Positions 35,826 through 52,930 of a DNA stretch of 64,000 bases are shown in pieces. The DNA lies in the NCBI RefSeq assembly GCF_022458985.1, contig NC_061773.1:124001-188000 (forward strand), given 5' to 3'. A program made the position numbers and the translations under genes. Position 1 is the stretch's first letter; each line of letters starts with the position of its first letter. The notes beneath the pieces are model-generated. The model did no database searches, was not told where the DNA came from, and saw only the letters and a list, made by a program, of their open reading frames with translations. The DNA comes from Mugil cephalus (lineage: Eukaryota > Chordata > Actinopteri > Mugiliformes > Mugilidae).

Positions 35826-36410
35826 GCTAGCTACACTGTAAAAAAATAAATTGTAAAAAAAACGGTACATTTCTGGCAGCAGGGGCGCAATTAATTAAAA
35901 TACAGTTTTAAAACATTTTTAAAAAATTAAATCCCCTAAAAATATGGTAAATAAATGTTGTATTACGAACAATAATTCTTAAATTAACAGAAATATGCTG
36001 TTATCCATCGATTTTAATTACGTTATTTTGCCAACAAAAGAATGTGATTCATCTTTCAAAACACGTCAAAAACTGTTGCAAAACTAGATATTTGGTTAGA
36101 TTGCAAGAATGTACTATTAATTTTAGAAAACATCAAATGGATTTCATTGTTTTACGTTATTTTTAACGTTTAATTACAAACATTTTACATTTTAAAATAA
36201 TGAAATCACCAATAAAGTCGGAAAATTAACATTGTAATATGAATAATAATGCTTAAAGTGCAGAAATGTGCTCTTATTAGTTGTTTTAATGGCATAATTT
36301 ATAAAAAAAAAGAAAAAAAAATAGTTGAGTTACCAATTTACATACAAGTCACCACACATCCACAACACTGATTAGAAACTTGGTGAAACGTCACTGGAAA
36401 TGAATCCATA
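35826..36410. repeat. AT-rich repeat beginning ACACTGTAAAAAAATAAATT
   Basis: It starts with ACTGTAAAAAAATAAATTGT and contains AAACGGTACATTTCTGGCAG, a known look of a common fish non-autonomous repeat (ACTGTAAAA...CGGTAAATTTCTGGCA). The right limit is unclear. A related end (TTTTTTTTACAGTGTAACTT) is at 49380-49400. No coding content. It lies between the KDZ start and the hAT MITE. Confidence 0.55.
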
Positions 36411-36418
36411 CTCTATAC

Positions 36419-36969
36419 CAGGGGTCAGCAACCCTCAACACTCAAAGAGCCATTTGGAAAGAAAACACTGGGAGCCACAAAACCCCTTTGACATCTAAAA
36501 CGAAGCCGCAACTTCGAACACCACAACTGCCGCACATCGGCAGTTGTGGTGTATATTTTCTGCAACAAAAAATTAAATACATTTTATTTTAATGTTAAAA
36601 GATCACCATCATCAATTCAAATTTAGAATTATATTTAAAAAACTAACGCACTAAAATAAAAATACATTTGAATTAAATACTCGACAGCAACTAGTAAATG
36701 AGCTGCAATGCACTGTGGGAGTTCAGTGTTTTTTGGTTGATGTTACAACCATGAGTGTGGTGTGGCATTCAGTGTCATTCAGTTGTTGTGTAACTCTCGC
36801 TCGTTCACTGATGAGTGACGAGTTGCCACTATTCTGAGGCAGTAAGTTAGCGTGAAAAAGTGAACAGCTTTGATCAGCATCCTTGCTCTGCACCGCTCGC
36901 TGCAGAGAGCTGCAACAGAGGAACGAAAGAGCCGCATGCGGCTCCGGAGCCGCGGGTTGCCGACCCCTG
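36419..36969. mobile_element. hAT-type MITE, 551 bp, with perfect 8 bp target duplication
   Basis: The left end is CAGGGGTCAGCAACC and the right end GGTTGCCGACCCCTG, a 15 bp inverted repeat with one mismatch. CTCTATAC precedes (36411-36418) and follows (36970-36977) it. An 8 bp duplication and CAGGGG ends are diagnostic of hAT elements. The interior has no transposase; it carries GAGCCGCATGCGGCTC near the right end and TGCAATGCACTGTGGGAGTT. It inserted into an exon of the SAM-domain gene. A truncated second copy is at 59895-60345. Confidence 0.95.
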
Positions 36970-37077
36970 CTCTATACAGTTGACGAGGTGTGGTGTCCGT
37001 ACTTGAACTACTAGTTGATCGTAGTGAAGTTGCAGTTTCTGAGCTGTAACCACCTGAAGAGAAGACAGAAAACATTA

Positions 37078-37560
37078 GCTGTTAAATAATAACAGCTAAT
37101 TACAGTTTAAGAGGCAGGACCAGGATAAAGGTGCAAGAAGATACAGCCTTTTCCAACACCACAGCAGTCACACGAGCTCCACTATAGATGACACCGTTTT
37201 TTTGGGACAGACAAGCTTGCAAGATCTCAACACACTACAAAGAAAATACACACCAGACTGATTATACATGGGAACTAAATGAACAACATATTGTTGTTGG
37301 GGGAACTATTGCTACTGCTGGATACAAAAGTCATTTTTTTCTGTACATTGTGATAAAGTATCCTGTGTTCATCCCATAATCCCATCCCATCATTAGTTGT
37401 GTGTCATTTGCTACCGAATCAGAATCTAGAGAAGATAGACCCAACTGATGATACTAATTTCTAAGCACACTGTCAATTTACTGCTGCTGATTGTACTATA
37501 TTACACTAAGTTACAGGTAGATTTCATTATTTTTCAGCCCATCTAACCCAAAAGAGTAAC
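37078..37560. other. Intron of the SAM-domain gene, nothing else recognised
   Basis: Sequence between predicted exons 2 and 3 on the minus strand. No repeat that I can name. Confidence 0.5.
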
Positions 37561-37637
37561 TGTGTGCAACAGATGCATGTACTCACCAGAGAGGGGCATC
37601 TCATCAGACTGTGTTACTGGACTTGTACTGGTACTGG

Positions 37638-38004
37638 TGTTGTATATTGATGTGCTGAAGATAGAAGTGATCACCGCTGACAAGTCTTATCTTGCATTTA
37701 AAAAGGTTTATTTACAAGAAAGAACAATGTCAAACTCTTGCCGAATCTGAGAGAGCCTCTGGCCAATCGTCGAATCCCCTCTCCCATTCAGCTCCCACAG
37801 TCACCTTATATAGGATGGTCATCCCCGAGAACCCCCATACACAAACAAAGCTTTAGGTTGTATGTCCTGGCTCGTTTTACGAACTGGCATCTGGTAAATG
37901 ACCTTTTTGACCTTTAACCATTAACCTTTAACTTTATACATCCTTCACAACCCCCAGGCACAGGAAAGGGACAGATAAGAAGAACAAGAAGATAATATAC
38001 TACA
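37638..38004 (-). repeat. 3' LTR of the endogenous retrovirus
   Basis: 367 bp, read on the minus strand from TGTAGTATATTATCTTCTTG to CAATATACAACA. It contains a TATA box (TATATAAGG, plus coordinates about 37804-37812) and an AATAAA signal (about 37707-37712). This gives a U3 of about 170 bp and a short R of roughly 80-100 bp. A repeated TTAAAGGTCAAAAAGGTCA-like block in U3 (37896-37930) may be an enhancer, possibly a nuclear-receptor-type direct repeat (AGGTCA words); that is inference. Confidence 0.95.
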
Positions 38005-38016
38005 TTCCCCCCTTCG
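38005..38016 (-). promoter_or_regulatory. Polypurine tract
   Basis: GAAGGGGGGAA lies directly before the 3' LTR on the minus strand, the expected place for the plus-strand primer of reverse transcription. Confidence 0.9.
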
Positions 38017-38775
38017 AGGCTCCTAGAGTCTCGACCACCAAAAAACACGTACACACATTCAAACACAAAAACATATTCATTATTATAACAGAATAATATG
38101 TCCTTCTTACAGTGCCAGTTACAGCACAACCCTTAACGATACAACAAATTCATGGAGTGTGAGAGCGAAAACCTATCAGACAGTCATCTTTCTTAAAATG
38201 TCCACCTTTCAATCTAGACAGGAAATTCTCTCACGGCCCCTCTGTCTCAGGCGACCACACAGTAGTACTCCAAGCCTACTAAAAAGAAGGATTTCTAAAA
38301 GTTATAGGGAAATATCTTAAGCAGAGTATATATATGGATACCTCAGAAAATAAATCAAAACCATATCCAACATCAGGCTGGTCGACCCATCGGACCCTCC
38401 ATTGGACCTTTCCCTTCCTAGCATTACTTTCCTTAAACACCCCGAAAACAAAAAGAAAACAACTGAGGTTCCAATACATCCACTTTCTTAACAAGCACAT
38501 AACTCAATTACATTTTTTACAACACTGATAAAACAAAAGTATGTTGCACTGTGATTCTTTTCCACTTTGCTCCATTCGTTTCCCACTGGCACTGCAAAGC
38601 TTCATCACAGCGTCCTAGTTCAGGGTCCTTCAGTCCCCGAACACCCAGCTTCTCACATTGATCCTCCTTCAATGTCCTTCTAAGTGGAGAAAAGACAGCA
38701 CACCAGTATCTTTGCAAACATTAAAACGAATAGACACAATATATTTAAAAACAAACATCAACACACACACATTTC
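38017..38775 (-). other. Retroviral region between integrase and 3' LTR, env not recognised
   Basis: About 760 bp separate the last integrase similarity from the polypurine tract; an env gene needs about 1.5-2 kb. Two short minus-strand frames (66 codons at 38717-38517, 73 codons at 38500-38279) show no signal peptide, furin site or fusion peptide. They could be the remains of env or another 3' sequence. A deletion that removed the end of integrase and most of env is the simplest explanation. Confidence 0.55.
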
Positions 38776-41700
38776 TCCTTGACTCTGTGGATGATAAACT
38801 GCCCCAAGACGCTGTTTAATACCCAGTTTCTGTAAAATCAATTTCACAGTCTTATCCACAAACTCCTTCCCGTTATCCGAAGATATTCGATCAGGAAGTC
38901 CCCACCTGCTTATGACCTCCCTGCACAGAAACTTTGCAACTGACTGAGCATCCTTTCACTTAGTTGGACAAGCTTCAGGCCATCGTGAAAATCTATCCAC
39001 GACGACCAACATGTACCTCTTTTACCTGCAACCGGTTTTATCATATCGACAAAATCCACCACCAACTCACGCATTGGACCCCTTGGCGTTGGAATATGAC
39101 CTGGAGGAACCATCACACCCCTCCGAACATTATTTTTCAGACAGATAGTGCACCTGCTTATAACATAATCAATTTGCTCAAGCAAATATGGTGCCCAAAA
39201 TCCATACTCTTTTATAATCTTCCTCCTAACTTCCCCCCTTGCAACATGGGCTAAGCCATGTGCTTCCTGAATCATCAATCCCAACAGGTCTGGAGGTGCT
39301 ACTATCAGTCCCTCATGATTTCTCCAAAGACCAGTAGAATCCTGTGTTGCCCCTCGATCTACCCACAACTGTTTATCCACCTCAGAGACAGCTTCCTGCA
39401 TTAAGACCACATCTTTCACTGTAATCTTATCCTCCAAATCTACTTCATGTGTGACCAAGAAAACTTTACCCAACTTCTCAGCTCCTGTCACTGCTTTTGC
39501 AGCCTCATCAGCCGCTTTATTACCCTGAGTGACTCTTGACACATCCTTCTTATGTGCTGCACATTTAGCTATTGCTATTTCTTTAGGTTTCATCATAGCA
39601 TGGAGATGTTCCATTATCTGAGTGTGATGTTGTATTGGGGAACCATCTGTTTTCTTAAACCCTCGATTTTTCCATACCGATCCAAACAAATGACACACAT
39701 TATGAGCATATGCAGAATCTGTATAGACCGTCACACGCTTGCCTTCCGCTAAAAGACATGCTTCAGTTAACCCCACCAATTCAGAAAGCTGCGCTGATGC
39801 AGGCTGCGGTACCACTTCCGCTTTCTCAACAACAAATCCTGTTCCCTGGGCTTTTACCACCGCATAACCAGCACTCAAATTATCTCCCACACGATAACAG
39901 GACCCATCTGTCCAATACTCTACATCTGCCTCACGCAGTGGGAGAGCTTTCAAATCTGACCTTAATCTTGAGTATTTCTCTGCTTCTTGAACACAATCAT
40001 GTGGTTCACCATCTTCTGGAGTTGGCAAATTCTCAGCTGGATTTATCGTAACACATCTGACTAATGTGACATCCTCCTGTTCTAAAAGCCTATTATAGTC
40101 TCTAAGTCCAGGCATGGTCAACGTATACCTGCCATAGTTCAAAAGATTTCTGAGACTATGATGAGTAAGAATTGTCACTGGATATCCCCTCGTGACCGAA
40201 GATGCTTTGTCATACATTAAATAGACTCCCACCATTGCTCTATAACACAGTGGTAGTCCAAGTTCAACATCTGAGTAAGCAGTAGAATAATATGAAATAG
40301 GTTGAGGACTGGTCCCTGTACCGGTTGGCTGACAAAGAACTGCACATGCATATTTTCCTTCAGCTGAAGTAGATACGTACAACAGAAAATTCTTAGAATA
40401 GTCTGGAAGTGCTAATGCTGGAGCTTCTTGTAACCTCTGTTTAATCGTTTCAAAGGCTAATAAACCATCCTGTGTCCAGAGAAGATTACAGTGAAGTTGA
40501 GTACTCCCAGTATCTTTAATCATAGCCCTTAAAGGTCCTGTCAAACTTGCATAATCTTCAATCCATGCTGAAGAGTAACCAGTGATACCGAGGAATGTCA
40601 TCATCTCCCTGACTGTTCGGGGCTTTGGAGCCTTTCGAATAGCCTCTAAATGACTGTCAGAAATACTTCTGTGGCCCTGTGATATTGTTTGACCCAAATA
40701 AACTACCTTCTCCTGACAATATTGCAACTTCTTCTGTGAGACCTTGTGACCATTTTCTGCCAAAATCTGCATCAGCTTAATTGAGTCTTCATGACATGTT
40801 TTTTTATCTGGTGAACAAATAATAATGTCATCTACATATTGAACCACTGTACTTTTTAATTTTTGATCTAGTCCTGCCAAATCATCTTTCAATACTTTAT
40901 TGAAAATATGAGGACTATGTTTAAATCCCTGTGGCAACCTTTTGTACACATAAAACTGTCCCTTGTATGTGAACCCAAACAAACCCTGACTTTCTACGCT
41001 CAGTGGAACACTGAAAAATGCACCACATAAATCCAATACTGTAAAATGTGTAGCATTTGGGGGAATTTGAGCTAACAAAGTATGCGGATCTGGCACTTCT
41101 GCTGGAAAATCGGCTACTACTTCGTTCACAAATCTCAAATCATGAACCAAGCGATAGGAATCATCTGGTTTCTGTAAAGGCAACAATGGCGTATTGCTTA
41201 TAGGATTTTGAGTTATCTTCAGCACATCTGCTCTCAGAAGTCCTTCAAGCTGTGGTTCAATCCCTTGAACTGCCTCTTCTTTCAGTGGATACTGATTCTT
41301 CCAAGGAGGTCTGGCTCCAGGTCTAAGCTCCACTTTCACTGGTTGAGCTGATTTAACAAGACCAATATCAGTACTGTATCGAGACCACAAACATTCAGGT
41401 ACTTGCTGTAACATTTCTCTCCTCAAAACGTCTGCGTCCATTTCAACCCCACATATCGTTTCATGTGTCATTTGGACAACTTGTGGTCGCCCATGTCCTT
41501 GAGCAGATATCATAATCTTGAGAAACCGCTGATCCTCACTCTTCCAGATGGCAGAATTTCCCTCTACTGGTGCAAAAACAGCTTTTACTGCTTCCGCCAT
41601 CATTTCTCCTATATCTTTCTGTTCATATTCTTCAGACACCATCAAAGTCACATGTGGTACACTCTCTTTGATTTTATATTCTTCACTCACATATTCATTC

Positions 41701-42357
41701 ATATCAATCATCATTGCTGCTCCTTGTGGTCCCAAAATTATACAAGACGAGGTGAGTTCAACTTCTTTTGGTTGATGACTTATCCACTCCTCACAATTTG
41801 ACTGGGCAGCGTCCTTAAAATACTTGAGCGTACAATGAAGCGAATAGTCTGGAAGTTTTGCATCAGGCATATTTGCTACAATGAACTTCTCCCACAATTT
41901 AACAGGTTCCAAAAACTCTGCACTAAGATCTCCAATCCAGCATACTGAAGAGGCCTCCACATCTGTTGTCATCAATAGTTGGTAAGCAGTATCAGATGGC
42001 ATCTCCACCAAACAGCCATCGGGTGTACACTTTATAACACACTTCAATCTGCATAAAGCATCTCTTCCTAACAGTGCAATAGGTGTGTGTTCTGAAACCA
42101 ATATAGGTATTGTAGTCTTTTGATTTTTGTAACAGAGCTCAATTGGTTTTGTAAGAGGTACCAGCTGTTTCACTCCCTCAAACCCCGACCAGACATAGGG
42201 AGGTGTATAGCATCTTCAGGCCGAATACAGATGAAAGCCGCTCCGCTATCTACCATCACTTCTAATGGTCTATTATTTACTTTCACCATTATTGTTGGAT
42301 CTTGTTCCGGCCCTGACACCACCAGCTGACACCCCCCTTTCGAATTTTCCGGGCACC
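38776..42357 (-). pseudogene. Retroviral pol (protease, 2H-like domain, RT, RNase H, integrase), broken
   Basis: The protease starts beyond the gag stops, in the gag frame, with the active site VDSGAAF (about 42240-42262). A frameshift near 42205 moves it into the 1087-codon pol frame (42173-38910), which opens with the C-terminal LLGRD of the protease. In that frame: residues 95-230, extra domain with HCTL (113-116) and HVTL (174-177); 280-500, RT with LPQGFKHSP and YVDD at 446-449; 750-895, RNase H with TDGSC, E798, YTDSAYA and the NKAADEAA Asp; 965-1015, integrase H-x3-H...C-x2-C zinc finger; 1038, first core Asp (VVDFVD). A frameshift near 39018 ends the frame. The alternative frame retains the second core Asp (SSDNGKEFV) but has a TGA at 38958-38956. 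Similarity ends near 38776. The polyprotein would be cleaved inside particles to copy and integrate viral RNA. Confidence 0.92.
41486..41891 (-). other. 2H phosphoesterase-like domain inside pol, between protease and RT
   Basis: About 135 residues with no counterpart at this position in typical gammaretroviral pol. It has two H-hydrophobic-T-hydrophobic motifs: YSLHCTLKYF (residues 111-120) and VPHVTLMVS (172-180), 61 residues apart. This pair is the catalytic signature of the 2H superfamily (LigT, AKAP7, vertebrate CNPase, coronavirus ns2, rotavirus VP3 C-terminus), which act on 2',3'-cyclic or 2',5'-linked phosphodiesters. Alternating polar and apolar strands around both motifs fit the two-lobed fold. 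Both His-Thr pairs are intact here. Known family members in RNA viruses degrade 2-5A and block RNase L; a similar task here is inference. The domain is in the undamaged part of the pol frame. Confidence 0.72.
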
Positions 42358-42360
42358 CCT
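42358..42360 (-). other. In-frame TAG between gag and protease (possible readthrough site)
   Basis: Sixteen codons after the gag TGA, in the same frame, a TAG is followed by GGG TGC CCG and then open frame to the protease DSGA. Gammaretroviruses make pol by readthrough of a UAG followed by G-rich sequence and a pseudoknot. TAG as the original gag stop, with the TGA upstream as a later mutation, fits that scheme. Inference. Confidence 0.5.
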
Positions 42361-42408
42361 AAAATCCTTGCTCTGGACCCCTATAAGGGTTCGCCGGTCC
42401 CCGGATTA

Positions 42409-44517
42409 TCAATTGCTGACCTCTGAATCCTCCTCTTGCATTTCCCCTGAAGTTTCCTCTGAATTTCCTCCTGGTCTATCACACTCACGAGCAAAGTGTC
42501 CAAACTGTCCACAGTTATAACACACTTCTGAGAACTGTTGGAAATTAAAGTTTCCTCTTCCTCTTCCAAAGGTTCCTCGACCTCTTCCTCTCCATATTTG
42601 CAGCTGGCCAAAAGTTGGTTGTGTGTTATAAACAACCGGGACCACTGGGGACGGTTGAGGTGATTGAAACTGAACCTGGTTTGGCTGCAATTGTGGTGGC
42701 GGCTGATTTTGTTCAGGCTGGCTCTGTAAAACTAAAGCCTGCTTCTTCTCCTTCTTCTTGTTATACACCAATTGTATTTAATTGAGTTTCCGAAGAGTTT
42801 CTTGATCTTGTTCCTTCTGATCATACTCCTTCTTTCTATACAGGTCCACTTGATGTGCTACATGGTCTGTATATACACCCTTCGCCATATTTCCAAGACC
42901 AACCACTTCTGCCAATTTGCTCCGCACTGGTAGAGGTAGCCCCTTCTGTATCTTGGCTCGCAAAATTGATTGCTCCATTTGACTCTCCTCTGGATCGTTT
43001 CCTGTGACATTTCTCCACACCTGATAGGCTCTTGACACATAGGCTCTCGGATTTTCTTCCTGTCCCAGTGGCTCAATGAGAATGTTGTCGGGGTGTATAT
43101 TTGTCGGAAATGTATCTTTCAATGCTCTCCATACTCGACCTCTATTTGCTGCAAACAGCTCTGAATCATTTACAGCAGTTTCCACATAACGGTTTAATCC
43201 AGCTCTCTGCAAAATCTCCCCCATGGCTGGAACCCCAAGTATATTAGCCAGCAATCTCTTAATGTCTCCTACTGCAGCTTGCGTCCCCACCATGATCTCT
43301 TCCAACTTTGAGATCCAAGGGTGTGCTCCATCTTGAAGAGTAGGTAACTTCTCAAGTATATCTGACATGTCAGTACTCTGCCAAGGTTTATACTCCAAGT
43401 TCTGACCTCTTATGACAACTGGACACATCTTACCAGGCTTCTTCTCTTTCCTTGAACGCAGTTCATATTCCTTGTCCTGTTTTTGGGAACCTGTTTTCCG
43501 CAACTCTTTCTTCTGAATCTGCAGTTCTTGTAATTGGTCTTCTAATGCCTTTCTTCCTTTTGGTGTAGTGCATTTGTCCAGACATCTACAGCATCGATCT
43601 ATATTCTCTTCAACTTCTCTTAAAATCTGTCGTCTTTCTTCTTCTCTATAAGCAGTTTTTATCTTAGCAGACTTCAAAAGAGTGGGACTCTCACTTTCTT
43701 CATCACTATCCTCATTCTCAATCTCATTTTCACTTCCACTTTCACCTTCAACTTCACTTTCATCTCTCAGTTCCATTCTTCTTCCTGTTGTACCTCCTCT
43801 TCTTTCCGCTCTGGCCAGTAGTCGTCTGACTGCTGGATCATATCCTCCCATGGCTTCTTCTTCATCACTCTGATCCTCCACTTCTCCAAAATCCATCCTT
43901 TTAATTCTCAATCGTCCTCCGGTCTCCAAACGTGTCGTTTTCTTTTTACTTTTTGTACTTGGATACATCCTAATAGTTGTCTCTGCTTTCCCCACTTCTA
44001 TAACCTGCTCAGCCTCATTCTTAATGTGGTAATTGCCCTCTTGACTAATTACCGGAAGCTGAGGATAAACTTCCCTGAGCTCCATCTCCTTCTTATACGG
44101 CGGAGGTCCCTGTACTGGAACTACATGTGAAAAGGGTGCATCAATCTCTGCCATTAACTTCTCTGTTTTCTTCACATTCTTTTTCATTTCATCTACAGTC
44201 TTCTCTTCACAGTCTTTCTTCTTCTCCATCCATTTCTGTCCCTCCTTCTCAAACAACTGGAGAATGCCAAGCTCCGTTTGTCTCTTCTGTTTACGTCTTT
44301 CACCTTTTCTTCCTTTCTTTTCGTCTGCCTTATATGTGGTCACAAGCACCTGTATTGTTTTTATTACTTCTGGATTAAAGGTTCCTATCACTGGCCATGA
44401 TTGCTCAATTTCAGGCCAACGCTTACACCATTTCTGTGACATCTTTGCAATACCTTTAATTAAAGGGTTATTCTTCTGAACTACCTCAACAGGCGTAGTT
44501 ACTTTTGAGTTATCCAT
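42409..44517 (-). pseudogene. Retroviral gag (matrix, capsid, nucleocapsid) with an internal stop
   Basis: The 579-codon frame opens with MDNSKVTTPVEVVQKNNPLI at 44517. It has a basic Lys-rich N-terminal part (residues 80-125), an acidic Glu/Asp/Ser segment (about 205-290), a helical, charged linker, and a capsid-like region (VVIRGQNLEYKPWQSTDMSD, then AVGDIKRLLANILG). It ends in TAA at 42780-42778. The same frame continues directly downstream with a Gln/Pro-rich stretch, an RGRGR-type basic patch and one CCHC knuckle, [14 protein letters not shown] (42522-42481), to TGA at 42411. The TAA therefore separates capsid from nucleocapsid in one original frame. Gag would form the particle and bind genomic RNA. 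The first frame has no ATG-independent leader; no glyco-gag start was evident. Confidence 0.9.
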
Positions 44518-46513
44518 TTTTGATATAATAGTAACACCCCCTTTTTATCTGTAATCAAATTCAACCTAATTAAAAATAACCTTAACTCTATTCTATTATC
44601 CTATTATTATGTTTATTTTAATTGATACACTATTATTATTACTACCTATATTCCCCCTTTTTATCACAATCAACAAACAAATGAATCAATTTGCCAACTT
44701 CAGAGGATGCAAAAACAACCCTACAGATGTAAGAGCAAACAACGCCAGGTCCACACACAATATCAACCATATACAAACAACCGATCAAATTGCAAGGTAC
44801 AGCTTCCCCAACTCAGCAGAAATTAAACTCTGTTTTCTGAATGGTCAGTCATTGCCAAGCCTCAAACTGCAACATACATGCTATGTGCAAACAAATGAAT
44901 ATACTGTTGTTGTCCCAAATCTGATTACCAATCACACAATATATGTATCATCAATATCAACCATTAACAAATGCGTAGAGGTCAAAAAGCAGGTAGATTA
45001 GAAAGAGTCTGTGGATAAAATCACACTGGCCTTATTGCTGGGTTCAGATGCGTGTGCTGTCGTCTGCAAGCCTCAGGTTTCCTGTGAGGTAGACCAGCTG
45101 TTCTCTCCTCTGCCTCCAGACACCCCCCTTGTCCTTTTACTTCCTTCTTGAACTCTCACCCCATAAAAAGAGACAACAGGCAAACACTTTAACATTGTAG
45201 AAAACCACTAAGTACAATACACTCTTCAATGTGACTAACACATTCCTGCCAACACTTTCCTTTATTATTTCTTTAAATATAAAGTCCTTTTTCTGGGGCT
45301 CATATATTTTAACAGTTTCCAAAGTCCTCCAAGCAGAGGCTCATAGTATTTTAACCAAAAAAGTCCCCACAAAAGGCTCATACTATATTTATCAAACGTC
45401 CTTTACAGGCTCATAATATTTTAGCAAGTACTGAATATGTAAGTATATTATTATTATTTTCATCTCCTTAATCTCCTATTTCCTAATTTTATTCGTTTTA
45501 TTCAACATAAAATCTAATATATTACTTCATAAAACCGGTTGCCACACAAACAACAAGGATCCACAGACAACACATACAGAACACACAAATTTAAAGTGAT
45601 CACACATTTCTCTTCCAAATAACTAAGCCTCTAACTTCTCTCTAACTTCTACCTCCGACTTTAACTTCTAACTAACTTCTTCTTTTAACTAACTACTATT
45701 TTCCCTTTCTCTGTTAACTATTCCTATTTTCTTCTCTTTTCTTTTTTAGGCGATTCTTTCTAGCGGTCCTAGACCTGCCCAAGTAGCCTCAAGCTATAGA
45801 ACCCCTTTTTCTCTATTCCTTTTTAACTCTTATATCCTCTTTTCCTATTTTCCTCTAAATTTACCTCTTTTTTTAAACAAAAATTCAAATGTTCCTAATT
45901 CCCCTGGGCCCAGGAGTTCTCTCTCTCTCTTTTTTATCCTATTTTTACTTTAAGCCAATTCCTTTGAAGCCAATAAAGCCAATTTTCACACTGCTACCAA
46001 AGACCATGTGTCTTACTAGTTACAGCGGTAAAGGGCCCCTCCACTTAACTTTGCACGATGTGAGTTCAGCGCCTCATGCTACTAATTAGGCTTTTCTACT
46101 CTTATTTCTTCTATTCCTTTTCTATTCTCTTCTTCGCTTTTTCTCTATTTGTAGGCCTACTCTTATTTCCCTTTATTCCTTAATCCTAACTTCTCTTTTT
46201 CTTATCTTCTTATTTCCTTTAAATCTATATCGTCCATTCCCCCCTTTTGCGTTGCCAGCAACGCAAAGAAACCTCAAATTTAGAAATTTAGAACGACGAA
46301 TAACTTCCAACAGCAGCACAACAACCACCCCACAAAGAGTCTTAAACGGTGTGTCCCCACAGCAACACTGCACAGTCCCCACGAGCAAACCAGCGCACTA
46401 TAATGTGAAAAACTCACCCTGTATATAAGTCGACTGATGCGGGAGTCAGCTCCTCAGGACTGAAAGCAGATGCTGAGAGGCCACAAACACGTCCAAGTTC
46501 GTGACGCCAAAAT
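44518..46513 (-). other. Retroviral 5' leader, about 2.0 kb, with primer-binding site
   Basis: Between the 5' LTR and the gag ATG lie 2 kb, purine-rich on the coding strand (pyrimidine runs such as CTTTTCTTTTTT on plus). No open reading frame in it has a known domain. It should hold the packaging signal and possibly a splice donor. The length is large compared with the 0.5-1 kb common in gammaretroviruses. The 130-codon plus-strand frame at 44609 is judged a chance frame. Confidence 0.7.
46493..46511 (-). promoter_or_regulatory. Primer-binding site
   Basis: Directly after the 5' LTR (two to four bases in) the minus strand reads TTGGCGTCACGAACTTGGA. The TGG start and position fit a tRNA primer-binding site. 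I cannot assign the tRNA with confidence; the first seven bases would suit tRNA-Asn, the rest less well. Confidence 0.6.
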
Positions 46514-46880
46514 TGTTGTATATTGATGTGCTGAAGATAGAAGTGATCACCGCTGACAAGTCTTATCTTGCATTTAAAAAGGTTTATTTACAAGAAAGAA
46601 CAATGTCAAACTCTTGCCGAATCTGAGAGAGCCTCTGGCCAATCGTCGAATCCCCTCTCCCATTCAGCTCCCACAGTCACCTTATATAGGATGGTCATCC
46701 CCGAGAACCCCCATACACAAACAAAGCTTTAGGTTGTATGTCCTGGCTCGTTTTACGAACTGGCATCTGGTAAATGACCTTTTTGACCTTTAACCATTAA
46801 CCTTTAACTTTATACATCCTTCACAACCCCCAGGCACAGGAAAGGGACAGATAAGAAGAACAAGAAGATAATATACTACA
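46514..46880 (-). repeat. 5' LTR of the endogenous retrovirus
   Basis: 367 bp, same length as the other LTR and, by eye, without a difference. Same TATA box (about 46680-46688) and AATAAA. It drives transcription on the minus strand. Right flank CTGG (46881-46884) matches the left flank of the element. Confidence 0.95.
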
Positions 46881-47419
46881 CTGGCTCTGCTCAACTGTTG
46901 TTTGCTCTGGCTCCTTGGAGGACTGTCCAAGACATATTGTTGGCCTTATTAAAGGCATTGATTGCATTGATTAGTACAGGTGGACCTAATAAGTAGATTT
47001 TGCCAATGCACATTTTTTTTAATGTGAAAGTTTATTCTGCACAAATTGAAACACATACTTGTCTTTTTGAGCAGTGACAGACATTTCCTGGCTTCAACTG
47101 GTCTCAGGACAGAAAGGAGGTCACTCTCCTGCAGGTAGCTCAGGTCCTCAACTCCTAAACATTGCAGATGCTCCAGCAAAGGCTCAGGGTCTCTCAGTTT
47201 AGGCACTGATTTGATGAAAGACAGAAGCGGACTCTCTGCATCCATGACTAGGAGGACTAGAAGGGATGAAAAATACGTTTTTACTGTCACATTTTAATCT
47301 CTCAAACTCCAGATGACTCTGAGTCAAAAATGCTATGCTTAAGTGAAATTACTCTTGTCCCACAAAGCTTGTACACAGGCAAAGGGTAATAATCTAGTCT
47401 CGCTCAGGCTTTCAACATT

Positions 47420-47765
47420 TCATGCTTGTTTCACTTCATACAATGCAAATGCTGGCACATAGGACACATCATGAGGTGTAACAAAGTATACGTGCTGGTC
47501 CTGCGTCACAAGCATGAGCTCAGTCTGTCTGAATTCAAGTGCCTCACCTTGATTTAAACACAGAAAGAGTACCTTTTCGTACTGAGTGCCTTTCCACTGC
47601 ACCATGGTAGCTGCTCAACATTGGGTTCTTTGACTGAGGTTTCTCCTACTGTGGAGCACACTGCTTCACTGTACAGTTCTGCATGGAAAGGAGTGGAGTT
47701 CTTAACCACCAGTTTATGCCATGAAATCAACTCTCACCACTTATCTGCAGAGAGAAAGAAAAAAA
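47420..47765 (-). pseudogene. C-terminal piece of a Tnp2/Plavaka-like teleost gene
   Basis: The minus-strand frame (47605-47420) reads WKGTQYEKVLFLCLNQGEAL, then FRQTELMLVTQDQHVYFVTP and PAFALYEV before a stop. An upstream block in another frame has VVKNSTPFHAELYSEAVCST. This is the order found at the C-terminus of a teleost gene family related to Tnp2/CACTA-type transposases. A frameshift lies near 47605. It sits 170 bases upstream of the SAM exon, in what would be that gene's 5' intron. Family assignment is from memory of the pattern. Confidence 0.5.
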
Positions 47766-48800
47766 AAATGATGAATCATGAAATTTGCCAAAATCAAAAT
47801 AAATGCTATTGGTTGTGAAAAAGTCGATCTAAACTGTGTTAGCAGATCTCCCCTCAATAAACCAGAAGATGATCGTTAGCTTATCCTTTCCATATTTTTC
47901 AGTATTGTTTTGAATTTCACTGACTAGTGTTGCACCAAAATTTAAATTTGAAAAACCTTGAAAAAGGCAGAGTAGGTCACTACTCCTATGTTTGTGAGAG
48001 GCAAGAGGAAGATAAAAATATTAGTTTTAAGAAAGAGTAACTGGTTAAAATAAACCATTACCAAATCTCAGTATCATTTATAAAACATTTGTTCTCTCTT
48101 CTTTGGAAGAAAATCCACTTAAAATGTCTCACTAGCGACACCTGCAAGTGGAGGAGTAGGAGCAATCTGCGTGGAAAGAAGACTTTGACATTTTGACACG
48201 TTACATTAAATCCAGCTTCCTATCCTAGCCAGAAATCATGCCATTTCAAGTCACGCAGTCAAGGTTATGGCCAAAAAACTAGAAGAGGGTTATTAATCGA
48301 TTATTGTTCATTGTTGCAGCTCTAAACAAATGTTGTTCCTCTTTCTCTCCGCCTGTGTCAGTCAGTTCACAAAAGTAAACGTAATGACTAACTGTTAAGT
48401 GCTAAGCTAACGTTAGTGTAAATAAAATAAAAAGTGGTTGGTCTGGCTAACTACTAACACCCATAGATATATATCTATGACTAACACTGGTAGACGCCAC
48501 GTGAAGACGCCGCCGCCGGCCATACTTTTGTCATCATAGTTAGCTAACATTTCAATTGACGACATGCTAGCGGATTGGTTTTGTCGACTGAGTAAAGTCA
48601 GAGGCATGGTGGTAAATAAAGCTAATACTACTAAGCTTCAGTTTGATACTTGCCTTCTGCCTTCGTCCTTCCTCCAGCCTCGACATTAGCTGCTGTTTGC
48701 TCCAAGTTTCTGTGACCAAACTGGAAGAGCCGCGTGGTGGTTGCTGACCTTGTTAAGCGTAACATCAAAGACAGATGATCAGTGTCGCAACAGCCAATGG
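47766..48800. other. Non-coding; possible promoter or first exon on the minus strand
   Basis: The part at 48480-48760 is GC-richer than its surroundings (GCCGCCGCCGGCC at 48508-48520). On the minus strand it has a block ending in GGCAGAAG|GCAAGT, which could be a GC-type splice donor. It could be the first exon of the SAM-domain gene. Evidence is weak. Confidence 0.3.
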
Positions 48801-49934: not shown

Positions 49935-51215
49935 TAAAAATAAAGCTGCATGCAGCAATGAGGGGGTCCAAGCACATAGGTCATAAGGCTAGAAGGGAAG
50001 TTTCGAGTGAATCAGCCAAAGATTGGCGAAAATACGAGCTGACTTCCTGGTTGGCGGCTCCGTCGGCAAATTTGATTGGGTGTAGCGGGCAAATGGATTG
50101 CACAATGAAAATGCCCCTAAGTAACTTTTGTGCGGTTCGGTCTGAAGATAGTCTCTGCTGATTTTTCGGGAGAATCGAACAAAATTTGCGTGCGACCTGT
50201 GAATCTTTTTAAAGGTTTTGGACAAAATCCAATATGACGGCCAAATTTTTACAAGTGTGTGAAAAGTTTTGCCAGATCCTGAAAGGGGACATTCCAAAGT
50301 TTCACTTAACATGAAAATTTTCTTTGAAATACTAACACGTCAAAGAGAAAAGAGCAAAAACGCAATTTGTTAATTACAGCGCCCCTAGAGGCCGAATGAC
50401 ATCGAATTTTTATTGCGCATTTCGAAGGGAGTCCCGAAGCGTCCAACCAAGGTTGGAATTCGGAAGTGTCGCCGAGATACGAGCAAACTTCCTGTTTGGC
50501 GGCGTCGCCGCCGACAACGATTGGCTAACATGAAAAGTTGCCATGAACTATCAATGGGGCACCCCATAGTACCCGTGGATGTCACAAAGTCATTTCAAAT
50601 ATGAAGTCATCAAGAGATATGAGAAAAACCATTTTTTTCTAATTACAGCCCCCTAGAGACCAAATGGCACCAACTTCATGATTTTCACTTGGGATCAGGT
50701 CAGGACCCATATTGCCAAATGTGATGTCAATATGTCACATCGTTGCTGGGATATGAGCTTATATTGAAAACCGCGCCTTCGCCGCTGATTTTGATTGGCC
50801 GCAGCAGACGAACGAAGTGGAAATGAAAAAAACCCATCTAGGAACTTTTGTGCGGCTAGGTCTGAAGATAGTCTGTGGCGATTTTTTGTGAGAATCGGAC
50901 AAAATCTACGACCCGTGAGTCTTTTTAAAGGTTTTTCACAAAATCCAAAATGACGGAAAATCTATCATGACGTCATAGGACACACGATCCAAGGATCACA
51001 AGGATACCTTGTTTTTGAAAATTGGGCATACGGTTCAAAAGTCCAAATGTACTTCCAACTTTGACCTGTTGGTGGCGCTAGAGTGTACTTACTGGCAACA
51101 TGTAACTCAGTCAAATTAAAGATACAACTGTCCTTAAGCTTTGTGCATAATTTCACAACTTTTCACCATACGGTTCTATGGGCTGCCATAGACTCCAATG
51201 GCAGAAGAAAGCGGA
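49935..51215 (+). repeat. Large teleost repeat, unit 1
   Basis: Begins AAAGCTGCATGCAGCAATGA followed by GGGGGTCCAAGCACAT, and ends CTATGGGCTGCCATAGACTC plus CAATGGCAGAAG. Inside are modules that recur within the unit: a 'TTTTTAAAGGTTTTT[G/C]ACAAAATCCAA' block (50208 and 50930), a 'GATTGG...GGCAAACG' block and 'GCGCCCCTAGAGGCC' followed by 'GAATGACA'. No open frame. It is a known-looking repeat of fish genomes but I do not know its class. Confidence 0.75.
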
Positions 51216-51227
51216 ATGATAATAATA

Positions 51228-52930
51228 ATATAGCTGCATGCAGCAATAAGGGGGTCCAAGCACATCGGCCATGGGCCATAAGGCTACATGAGAAGTTTCT
51301 AGTGAATAGGACAAGGATTGGCGGAAATACAAGCGGCCTTCCTGGTTGACGAATTTGATTGGCTGTAGTGGGCAAACAGATTGGACAATGAAAATGCCAC
51401 TAAGCAACTTTTATGCGGCTCAGTCTAAAGATAGTCTGTGCCCATTTTCGTGAGAATCAGACAAAATTTGTGACCTGTGAAACTTTTTAAAGGTTTTTGA
51501 CAAAATCCAATATGGCGGCCAAATTCTTGCGATTGCGTGAAAAGTTTTGCCAGATCCTGAAAGGGGACATTTAACGGTATCAGCAAACATGAAAATGTAC
51601 TTGGAAATCAAGAGAAAAGAGTAAAAACGCATTTTTGTTAATTACAGCGGCCCCTAGTGCCTGAATGACACCAAATTTGGCATGTCTCCTTGGGTGGGTG
51701 CTGGAGACGTACGGGCAAATTTGATTTCGATATGTCAAAGCGTTCCCGAGATATGACCTCACATCCGGTCTGGAACCTTCGCCGCCAAATTTGATTGGCT
51801 GTTGCGGGCAAACGGATTAGACAATGAAAATGCCACTAAGTAACTTTTGTGCAGTTTGGTCTGAAGATGGTCTGTGACGGTTTTCGTGAGAATCAGAGAA
51901 AATTTTTAGACGCGTGAAACTTTTTAAAGGTTTTTGACAAAATCCAATATGGTGGCCAAATTCTTACGATTACGTGAAGAGTTATGCCAGATCCTGAAAG
52001 GGGACATTCCACAATATCAGCAGACATGAAAATCTAGTCAAAAATCCTAACACGAGAAAAGAGCAAAAACGCAGTTTTGTTAATTTCGGCGCCCCCTACT
52101 GTCCGAATGACACCAAATTTGTATTGCACATTTCGAAGGGAGTCCCAAAGTGTCCAACCAAGTTTGGTCTTCGGAAGTCAAAGCATCGCCGAGATACGCG
52201 CAAATTTCCTGTTTGGCGGCGTCACCACCAACAACGATTGGCTTACACCAAAACTTGGCATTAACTATCAATGGGGCACCCTATAGTACATGTGGATGTC
52301 ACAAAGTCATTTCAAAAACAAACCCATCAAGAGATAGGAGGAAAAAACATGTTTTTCAAATTACAGCGCCCCCTAGAGGCCAAACGACACCAAATTCATC
52401 GTGTCCACTTGGGGCCGAGTCAGGACCCATATTCTCAAATGTGATGTCAATATGTCACAACGTTGCCGAGATATGAGTTCACATCGAAAACGGCACCTTC
52501 GCCACCATATTTGATTGACTGTGGTGGGCATACAAATGCGACGGTGAGGACGCCAATTAGTAACTTTTGTGCGGCTTGGTCTAAAGATAGTCTGTGCCGA
52601 TTTTCGTGAGAATCGGACAAAATTTGCGACAAGTGAAACTTTTTAAAGGTTTTTGACAAAATCCAAGTTGGTGGAAAATCTATCATGACGCATTTTGACG
52701 AAAGATACCTTGTTTGTAAATTTCGGGCATACGGTTCAAAAGTTACGTGCGCAAATTTATTTCCAACTTTGACCCATTGGTGGCGCAAGAGCGTTCTTAT
52801 TGGCAACATGTAACTCAGGCAAATTAAAGATCCTACTGTCCTTAATCAACGTGCAAACTTTCACAACTTTTTACCATACGGTTCTATGGGCTGCCATAGA
52901 TTCCAATGGCAGAAGACAGAAGAATAATAA
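51228..52930 (+). repeat. Large teleost repeat, unit 2, head-to-tail with unit 1
   Basis: Begins ATAGCTGCATGCAGCAATAA followed by GGGGGTCCAAGCACAT, as unit 1, and ends CTATGGGCTGCCATAGATTC plus CAATGGCAGAAG. It contains the 'TTTTTAAAGGTTTTTGACAAAATCCAA' block three times (51487, 51927, 52645), one more than unit 1. The extra module explains its greater length. Flanked on both sides by ATA-type simple repeat. Confidence 0.75.

Follow-up and report, generated by a model that had tools for sequence, protein, structure and literature searches.

2H phosphoesterases act on 2′,3′-cyclic phosphates and have been implicated in the cleavage of 2′,5′-oligoadenylate (2-5A) and cyclic oligonucleotides (PMC9503650). 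In retroviruses, a 2H domain was described in walleye dermal sarcoma virus (WDSV) by Iyer et al. (2022; PMC9503650), citing Mazumder (2002), so a retroviral 2H domain as such was already known. Described here is a 64,000-nucleotide stretch of the Mugil cephalus genome (contig NC_061773.1, positions 124,001 to 188,000; hereafter the window), whose minus strand carries an endogenous retrovirus (ERV). Its pol has a 2H phosphoesterase-like domain that follows the protease and precedes reverse transcriptase (RT). The 2′,5′-phosphodiesterases of coronavirus ns2 and the rotavirus VP3 C-terminus belong to the same superfamily and are likewise encoded by viruses. To our knowledge, the Pol enzymes of retroviruses have been regarded as few and fixed, dUTPase being the known addition; dUTPase inserts are likewise additional nucleotide-related enzymes, but their fold and chemistry are unrelated and they occupy other positions in pol. 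The explanation that best covers the data, and which we consider fairly probable as a whole, is that this fish class I ERV pol encodes a CNPase-like 2H phosphoesterase that would be packaged and would remove a host signal or RNA ends. Its computed basis is the predicted fold, the position, the conservation of both Hx(T/S) pairs, a single change on the RT tree and co-divergence with RT.

The domain spans 41469..41957 on the minus strand (residues 12-174 of P0001, the 184-residue translation of 41439-41990, and about residues 87-249 of pol). On the same strand, motif 1, HCTL (H52 and T54), lies at 41826..41837 and motif 2, HVTL (H113 and T115), at 41643..41654; they start at 41837 and 41654, 61 residues apart. 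A preliminary description of the locus had reported two H-x-T-L motifs at this distance in the open pol frame, and these were found again, on the minus strand; the description had named no strand. Their location between protease and RT was also borne out, with a Pfam RVP match below the cut-off on one side, RVT_1 (E 5.4e-30) on the other and no Pfam family above cut-off in the stretch between. The interval originally given, 41486..41891, falls inside the domain and clips both of its ends. Among the 60 stop-to-stop frames of at least 100 amino acids in the window, the pol frame alone was found to have such motif pairs, namely HCTL/HVTL and a second pair, HVTL/HETI, with HVTL common to both. By itself the HCTL/HVTL pair is weak evidence for 2H identity, because shuffling the 184 residues gave two Hx[TS]h motifs 50-90 residues apart in 699 of 200,000 trials (0.35%). 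Since the pair alone is weak, 2H identity was decided by conservation and fold.

Conservation was assessed in 29 complete domains (the window copy and 28 others), each kept if its match to the profile began no later than position 15 and reached at least position 158. Pairwise identity among them goes down to 23.5%, with a median of 43.5%. Twelve of 167 positions are invariant, comprising H52, H113 and T115 together with W18, W33, P47, W69, G87, G90, P112, L116 and M130, while T54 is Thr in 28 domains and Ser in one. As read from the alignment, the two H-x-(T/S)-hydrophobic motifs are present in 29/29; a survey of related ERVs had been proposed, for teleosts, in the preliminary description, and in these complete domains the two motifs are kept rather than freely varying. 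When partial sequences are included (42 homologues with a profile match), H113 is found in 37/37 and H52 in 34/35, T54 is Thr in 33 and Ser in one of 35, and T115 is Thr in 35, Ser in one and Ala in one of 37. Divergence in the domain is roughly double that in RT (the median ratio of distances being 2.0), and the distances of the two correlate (r 0.87 over 24 rows, with 0 of 5000 permutations as high). This pattern, which is not a dN/dS test, would fit an enzyme under active-site selection. That the domain is only a spacer or an RT cofactor, with the 2H fold retained but no catalysis, is quite improbable on these data: outgroup pols without the domain and the lack of any activity on record would agree with it, but it accords poorly with motif residues that stay invariant down to the lowest identity while the rest of the domain outpaces RT.

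The predicted model of the domain (pLDDT 90.2) has a two-lobed, internally duplicated 2H fold, and its structural matches to CNPase, RICH and LigT-like proteins cover residues about 9-175. Judged from the model, the CNPase group is the closest fold, and the spacing around motif 1 also agrees. The fish Pol domain is about 14% identical to the catalytic domain of CNPase (and goldfish RICH), has its histidines 61 instead of 79 residues apart (H230 and H309 in CNPase), and sits inside a retroviral Pol polyprotein. A structural comparison with AKAP7 and ns2 had been proposed in the preliminary description; the 2H fold was indeed predicted, but AKAP7 and ns2 as nearest relatives found no support among the structural matches listed, where AKAP7 does not appear. 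The earlier proposal is thus supported in part, namely for a fish retrovirus lineage with a probable 2H enzyme, by fold, conservation, position and the single change on the RT tree. The fold also bears on the possibility that there is no 2H domain at all and that HxT motifs arose by chance within an unrelated linker. The shuffling frequency given above and the weak sequence-profile scores speak for chance; it was rejected on the invariance of the motifs and a predicted 2H fold of high confidence, and is hardly credible.

Relatives were collected by protein searches with the domain, which returned 10 and 9 proteins, and by a search with RT, which returned 50, some of them already found; the latter is unbiased toward the domain, since its query was the RT part alone. 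Named hosts with complete domains include Scortum, Austrofundulus, Prochilodus, Metynnis, Syngnathus, Esox, Oryzias and the shark Mustelus asterias, and a partial one is present in Brienomyrus. The interval separating the protease motif from the RT reference start measures 207-222 residues in 25 domain-bearing rows, versus 39-49 in four retroviral rows called without the domain. RT identity to the window copy is 51-84% in rows with complete domain and RT and 41-45% in the four rows called without it (newt, bird and two more). In three much more distant sequences, P0054, P0056 and P0057, whose RT identity is 26-30% and of which at least two come from spiders to judge by their names, a protease-like motif precedes RT by 187-196 residues, yet none was matched significantly by the domain profile (E 9.2 for P0056). 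An RT tree was built from RT matches that spanned over 180 positions with an identity of at least 35%, leaving out P0012-P0014 (RT incomplete), short rows and the distant P0053-P0061. On its 39 rows (24 with the domain, four without, and 11 not callable and uncounted) a single change suffices for the trait, placed on a branch with support 100/97, and none of 500 label shuffles gave so low a number. In the viral_contigs collection no relative was found with either the domain or the RT profile. One cluster of the same ERV clade, P0040, represents 273 member sequences, which suggests that copies almost identical to it are numerous somewhere.

Taken with the motifs, the model suggests that the domain is probably catalytically competent. 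Because it belongs to Gag-Pol, it would be packaged in the particle and carried with the core into the next cell, whether cut free by the protease or kept as an N-terminal extension of RT. As in other 2H enzymes, the two histidines would serve as acid and base in the hydrolysis of 2′,3′-cyclic phosphates or 2′-linked phosphodiesters; to let infection proceed, the enzyme may remove either the ends of RNAs or a small-nucleotide signal that host antiviral enzymes produce. The CNPase-like fold favors a 2′,3′-cyclic phosphate as substrate, ahead of 2-5A. Cleavage of 2-5A, which would block RNase L, is what a 2′,5′-phosphodiesterase of the ns2, VP3 or AKAP7 kind would perform. The shared superfamily agrees with this, coronavirus ORF2 and ORF4b proteins do occur in the BFVD lists, though far down, and 2-5A has been proposed as a target of some viral 2H domains (Iyer et al., 2022; PMC9503650, section 3.4.5). 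It is weakened because OAS genes were not found in some teleosts, according to PMC2852836, and we hold it to be unlikely.

Somewhat less unlikely, yet still doubtful, is an enzyme of RNA ends that opens 2′,3′-cyclic phosphates on primer, genome or host RNA fragments for reverse transcription or repair, with no immune antagonism. In its favor, the nearest solved structures include CNPase and entry 6u05, a fungal RNA kinase of which the matched part is presumably the cyclic phosphodiesterase, and the domain is fused to RT and RNase H. However, the 2H reaction leaves a 2′-phosphate end, which is still unusable as a primer, no ligase or kinase was found among the Pfam matches of the scanned pieces, and the four outgroup pols called without the domain manage without it.

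Several results weigh against the preferred explanation, a packaged CNPase-like enzyme in Pol. Packaging with entry alongside the core, and release or retention next to RT, are steps that we infer. Superpositions of the first model on CNPase by Foldseek were moderate (TMq 0.50-0.59, rmsd 4.8-8.7), and R307 of CNPase, the Arg two residues before its second His, has a counterpart in 0/29 domains, as judged by sequence offset and not by superposition. Among the partial rows, P0009 breaks motif 1, its upstream part being unaligned, and the divergent P0038 (from Brienomyrus) is the one with Ala for T115. Pfam profiles of 2H families, a check suggested in the preliminary description, did match around motif 1 of the window copy, namely 2_5_RNA_ligase2 (E 0.0072) and LigT_PEase (E 0.044), but both fell below the curated cut-offs (16.8 bits against 27, and 14.4 against 23.3). 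Matches in 19 members were weak as well, nine to LigT_PEase (best E 8.1e-4) and six to 2_5_RNA_ligase2, and a separate scan of 12 members matched five (best E 1.1e-4). The likeness to E. coli LigT/ThpR is a similarly weak one in sequence: hhalign against LigT was not significant (probability 2.4%, control 0.3%), with motif 1 in register. A profile search of the PDB with the domain returned no convincing 2H relative (1fsi, E 0.94), and an earlier search of this kind gave none either.

In the same PDB search the top match was a WRKY entry (E 0.0084), probably by chance, and P0001 had no match to the PDB by sequence. NCBIfam gave no match, and PHROGs only two weak nameless families (phrog_10525, E 0.0051; phrog_24844, E 0.31). 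A tblastn search with LigT in a phage collection listed one record.

Structure searches of BFVD led back to the walleye viruses. Rank 1 was Q2VF30_1 (a 1072-residue model, E 2.0e-12, TMq 0.79), which, to go by its accession number, may belong to salmon swim bladder sarcoma virus. Ranks 2 and 3 were proteins labeled Envelope polyprotein, of walleye epidermal hyperplasia virus 1 (WEHV-1; E 2.9e-10, TMq 0.70, 21% identity) and of WDSV (E 1.8e-8, TMq 0.70, 15% identity). Rank 4 drops to E 1.0e-3, and the first three were identical in an earlier BFVD search. The two walleye entries, Q9WHI8 and A4GTG3, are the closest named viral structural matches. By the model, these matches suggest a 2H domain in epsilonretrovirus Env; WDSV would thus resemble the present ERV as a fish retrovirus with a 2H domain, but in a protein labeled Env, not Pol. 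According to the review PMC3185748, the membrane helices in the corrected WDSV Env lie at 850-874 and 1045-1069 and are joined by a loop on the cytoplasmic side; with about 170 residues, this loop would have room for a 2H domain. Tentatively, and at somewhat less than even odds, the 2H domain can be seen as an old standing part of fish retroviruses, kept in Pol between protease and RT in the teleost and shark clade and moved, in the same lineage, to walleye Env, perhaps to its loop. If one packaged enzyme was kept through such a change of gene, its function would lie in the incoming particle or the producer cell and not in the chemistry of Pol. The preliminary description knew of no retrovirus with a 2H domain at this place of pol. 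Among the texts consulted, a retroviral 2H domain is mentioned only by Iyer et al. (2022). No prior report of the Pol placement or of the spread over a fish ERV clade, the two points that appear new here, was found in the literature searched, where the naming as 2′-5′ RNA ligase, LigT or AKAP7 was not covered and could hide one; a term search of PMC8672886, on zebrafish ERVs, gave nothing either.

The provirus is bounded by two long terminal repeats (LTRs) on the minus strand, the 5′ LTR at 46514..46880 and the 3′ LTR at 37638..38004, each of 367 bp with TG...CA ends, flanked by a putative target repeat CTGG (37634-37637 and 46881-46884); a polypurine tract, read from the sequence, adjoins the 3′ LTR (38005..38015). 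All further features lie on the same strand. The gag open reading frame (ORF; 42781..44544, 588 amino acids) has a weak capsid-like part (Gag_p30 E 0.088, below cut-off) and continues, after an in-frame stop, into a nucleocapsid part with a zinc knuckle (42412..42777; zf-CCHC E 4.4e-8). The N-terminal half of the protease, with DSGA, lies in another frame (42173..42358; gag-asp_proteas E 2.7e-5 and RVP E 0.0018, both below cut-off) and the C-terminal half in the pol frame (41994..42215; RVP E 0.0037, below cut-off). The pol ORF (42215 to 38910, 1101 amino acids) then holds, beyond the 2H domain, RT (40605..41438), the RT connection and RNase H (39513..40604; RNase_H E 8.1e-18, RT_RNaseH_2 E 6.2e-14) and the H2C2 zinc-binding start of integrase (38913..39512; Integrase_H2C2 E 0.0019, below cut-off). 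An integrase core piece follows in another frame (38761..38955; rve E 1.8e-9), after which the integrase is broken. The retroviral order of gag with zinc knuckle, protease, RT, RNase H and integrase pieces is therefore kept, and together with the LTRs this gene content identifies the element as a class I (gamma/epsilon-like) ERV. The pol profile of the relatives (A1) gave as best PDB matches the RT/RNase H p80 entries 4hkq, 5dmq and 4mh8, which we take to be murine leukemia virus-like.

The window copy is broken, with a protease in two frames, a stop before the zinc-knuckle part and a shortened integrase, while the 2H part is open throughout. No env-sized ORF was found: in the stretch from pol to the 3′ LTR, the remaining minus-strand ORFs reach 74 amino acids at most. 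The LTRs of the provirus (37638-46880) are 100% identical despite the interrupted reading frames of protease, gag and integrase and the absence of an ORF the size of env; the copy may have been moved in trans or may carry assembly errors. Between the 5′ LTR and gag (44545-46513) there is a long leader of about 2 kb without a minus-strand ORF of at least 80 amino acids. No tRNA genes were found in 36000-48000. Outside the provirus, 50017-52000 holds diverged direct repeats in families of 71-149 nt at spacings of 436 to 1283.

If the proposed function is correct, a conserved and apparently active RNA- or nucleotide-cleaving enzyme in Pol would mean that one retroviral lineage has a particle-borne counter-measure or an RNA-processing step of its own. 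Such an enzyme would further hint at a selective pressure from the host that can be tested in fish, a group in which OAS seems to be lacking in some members. Moreover, a link between the Pol-borne domain and that of walleye Env, if true, would account for part of the odd Env of epsilonretroviruses.
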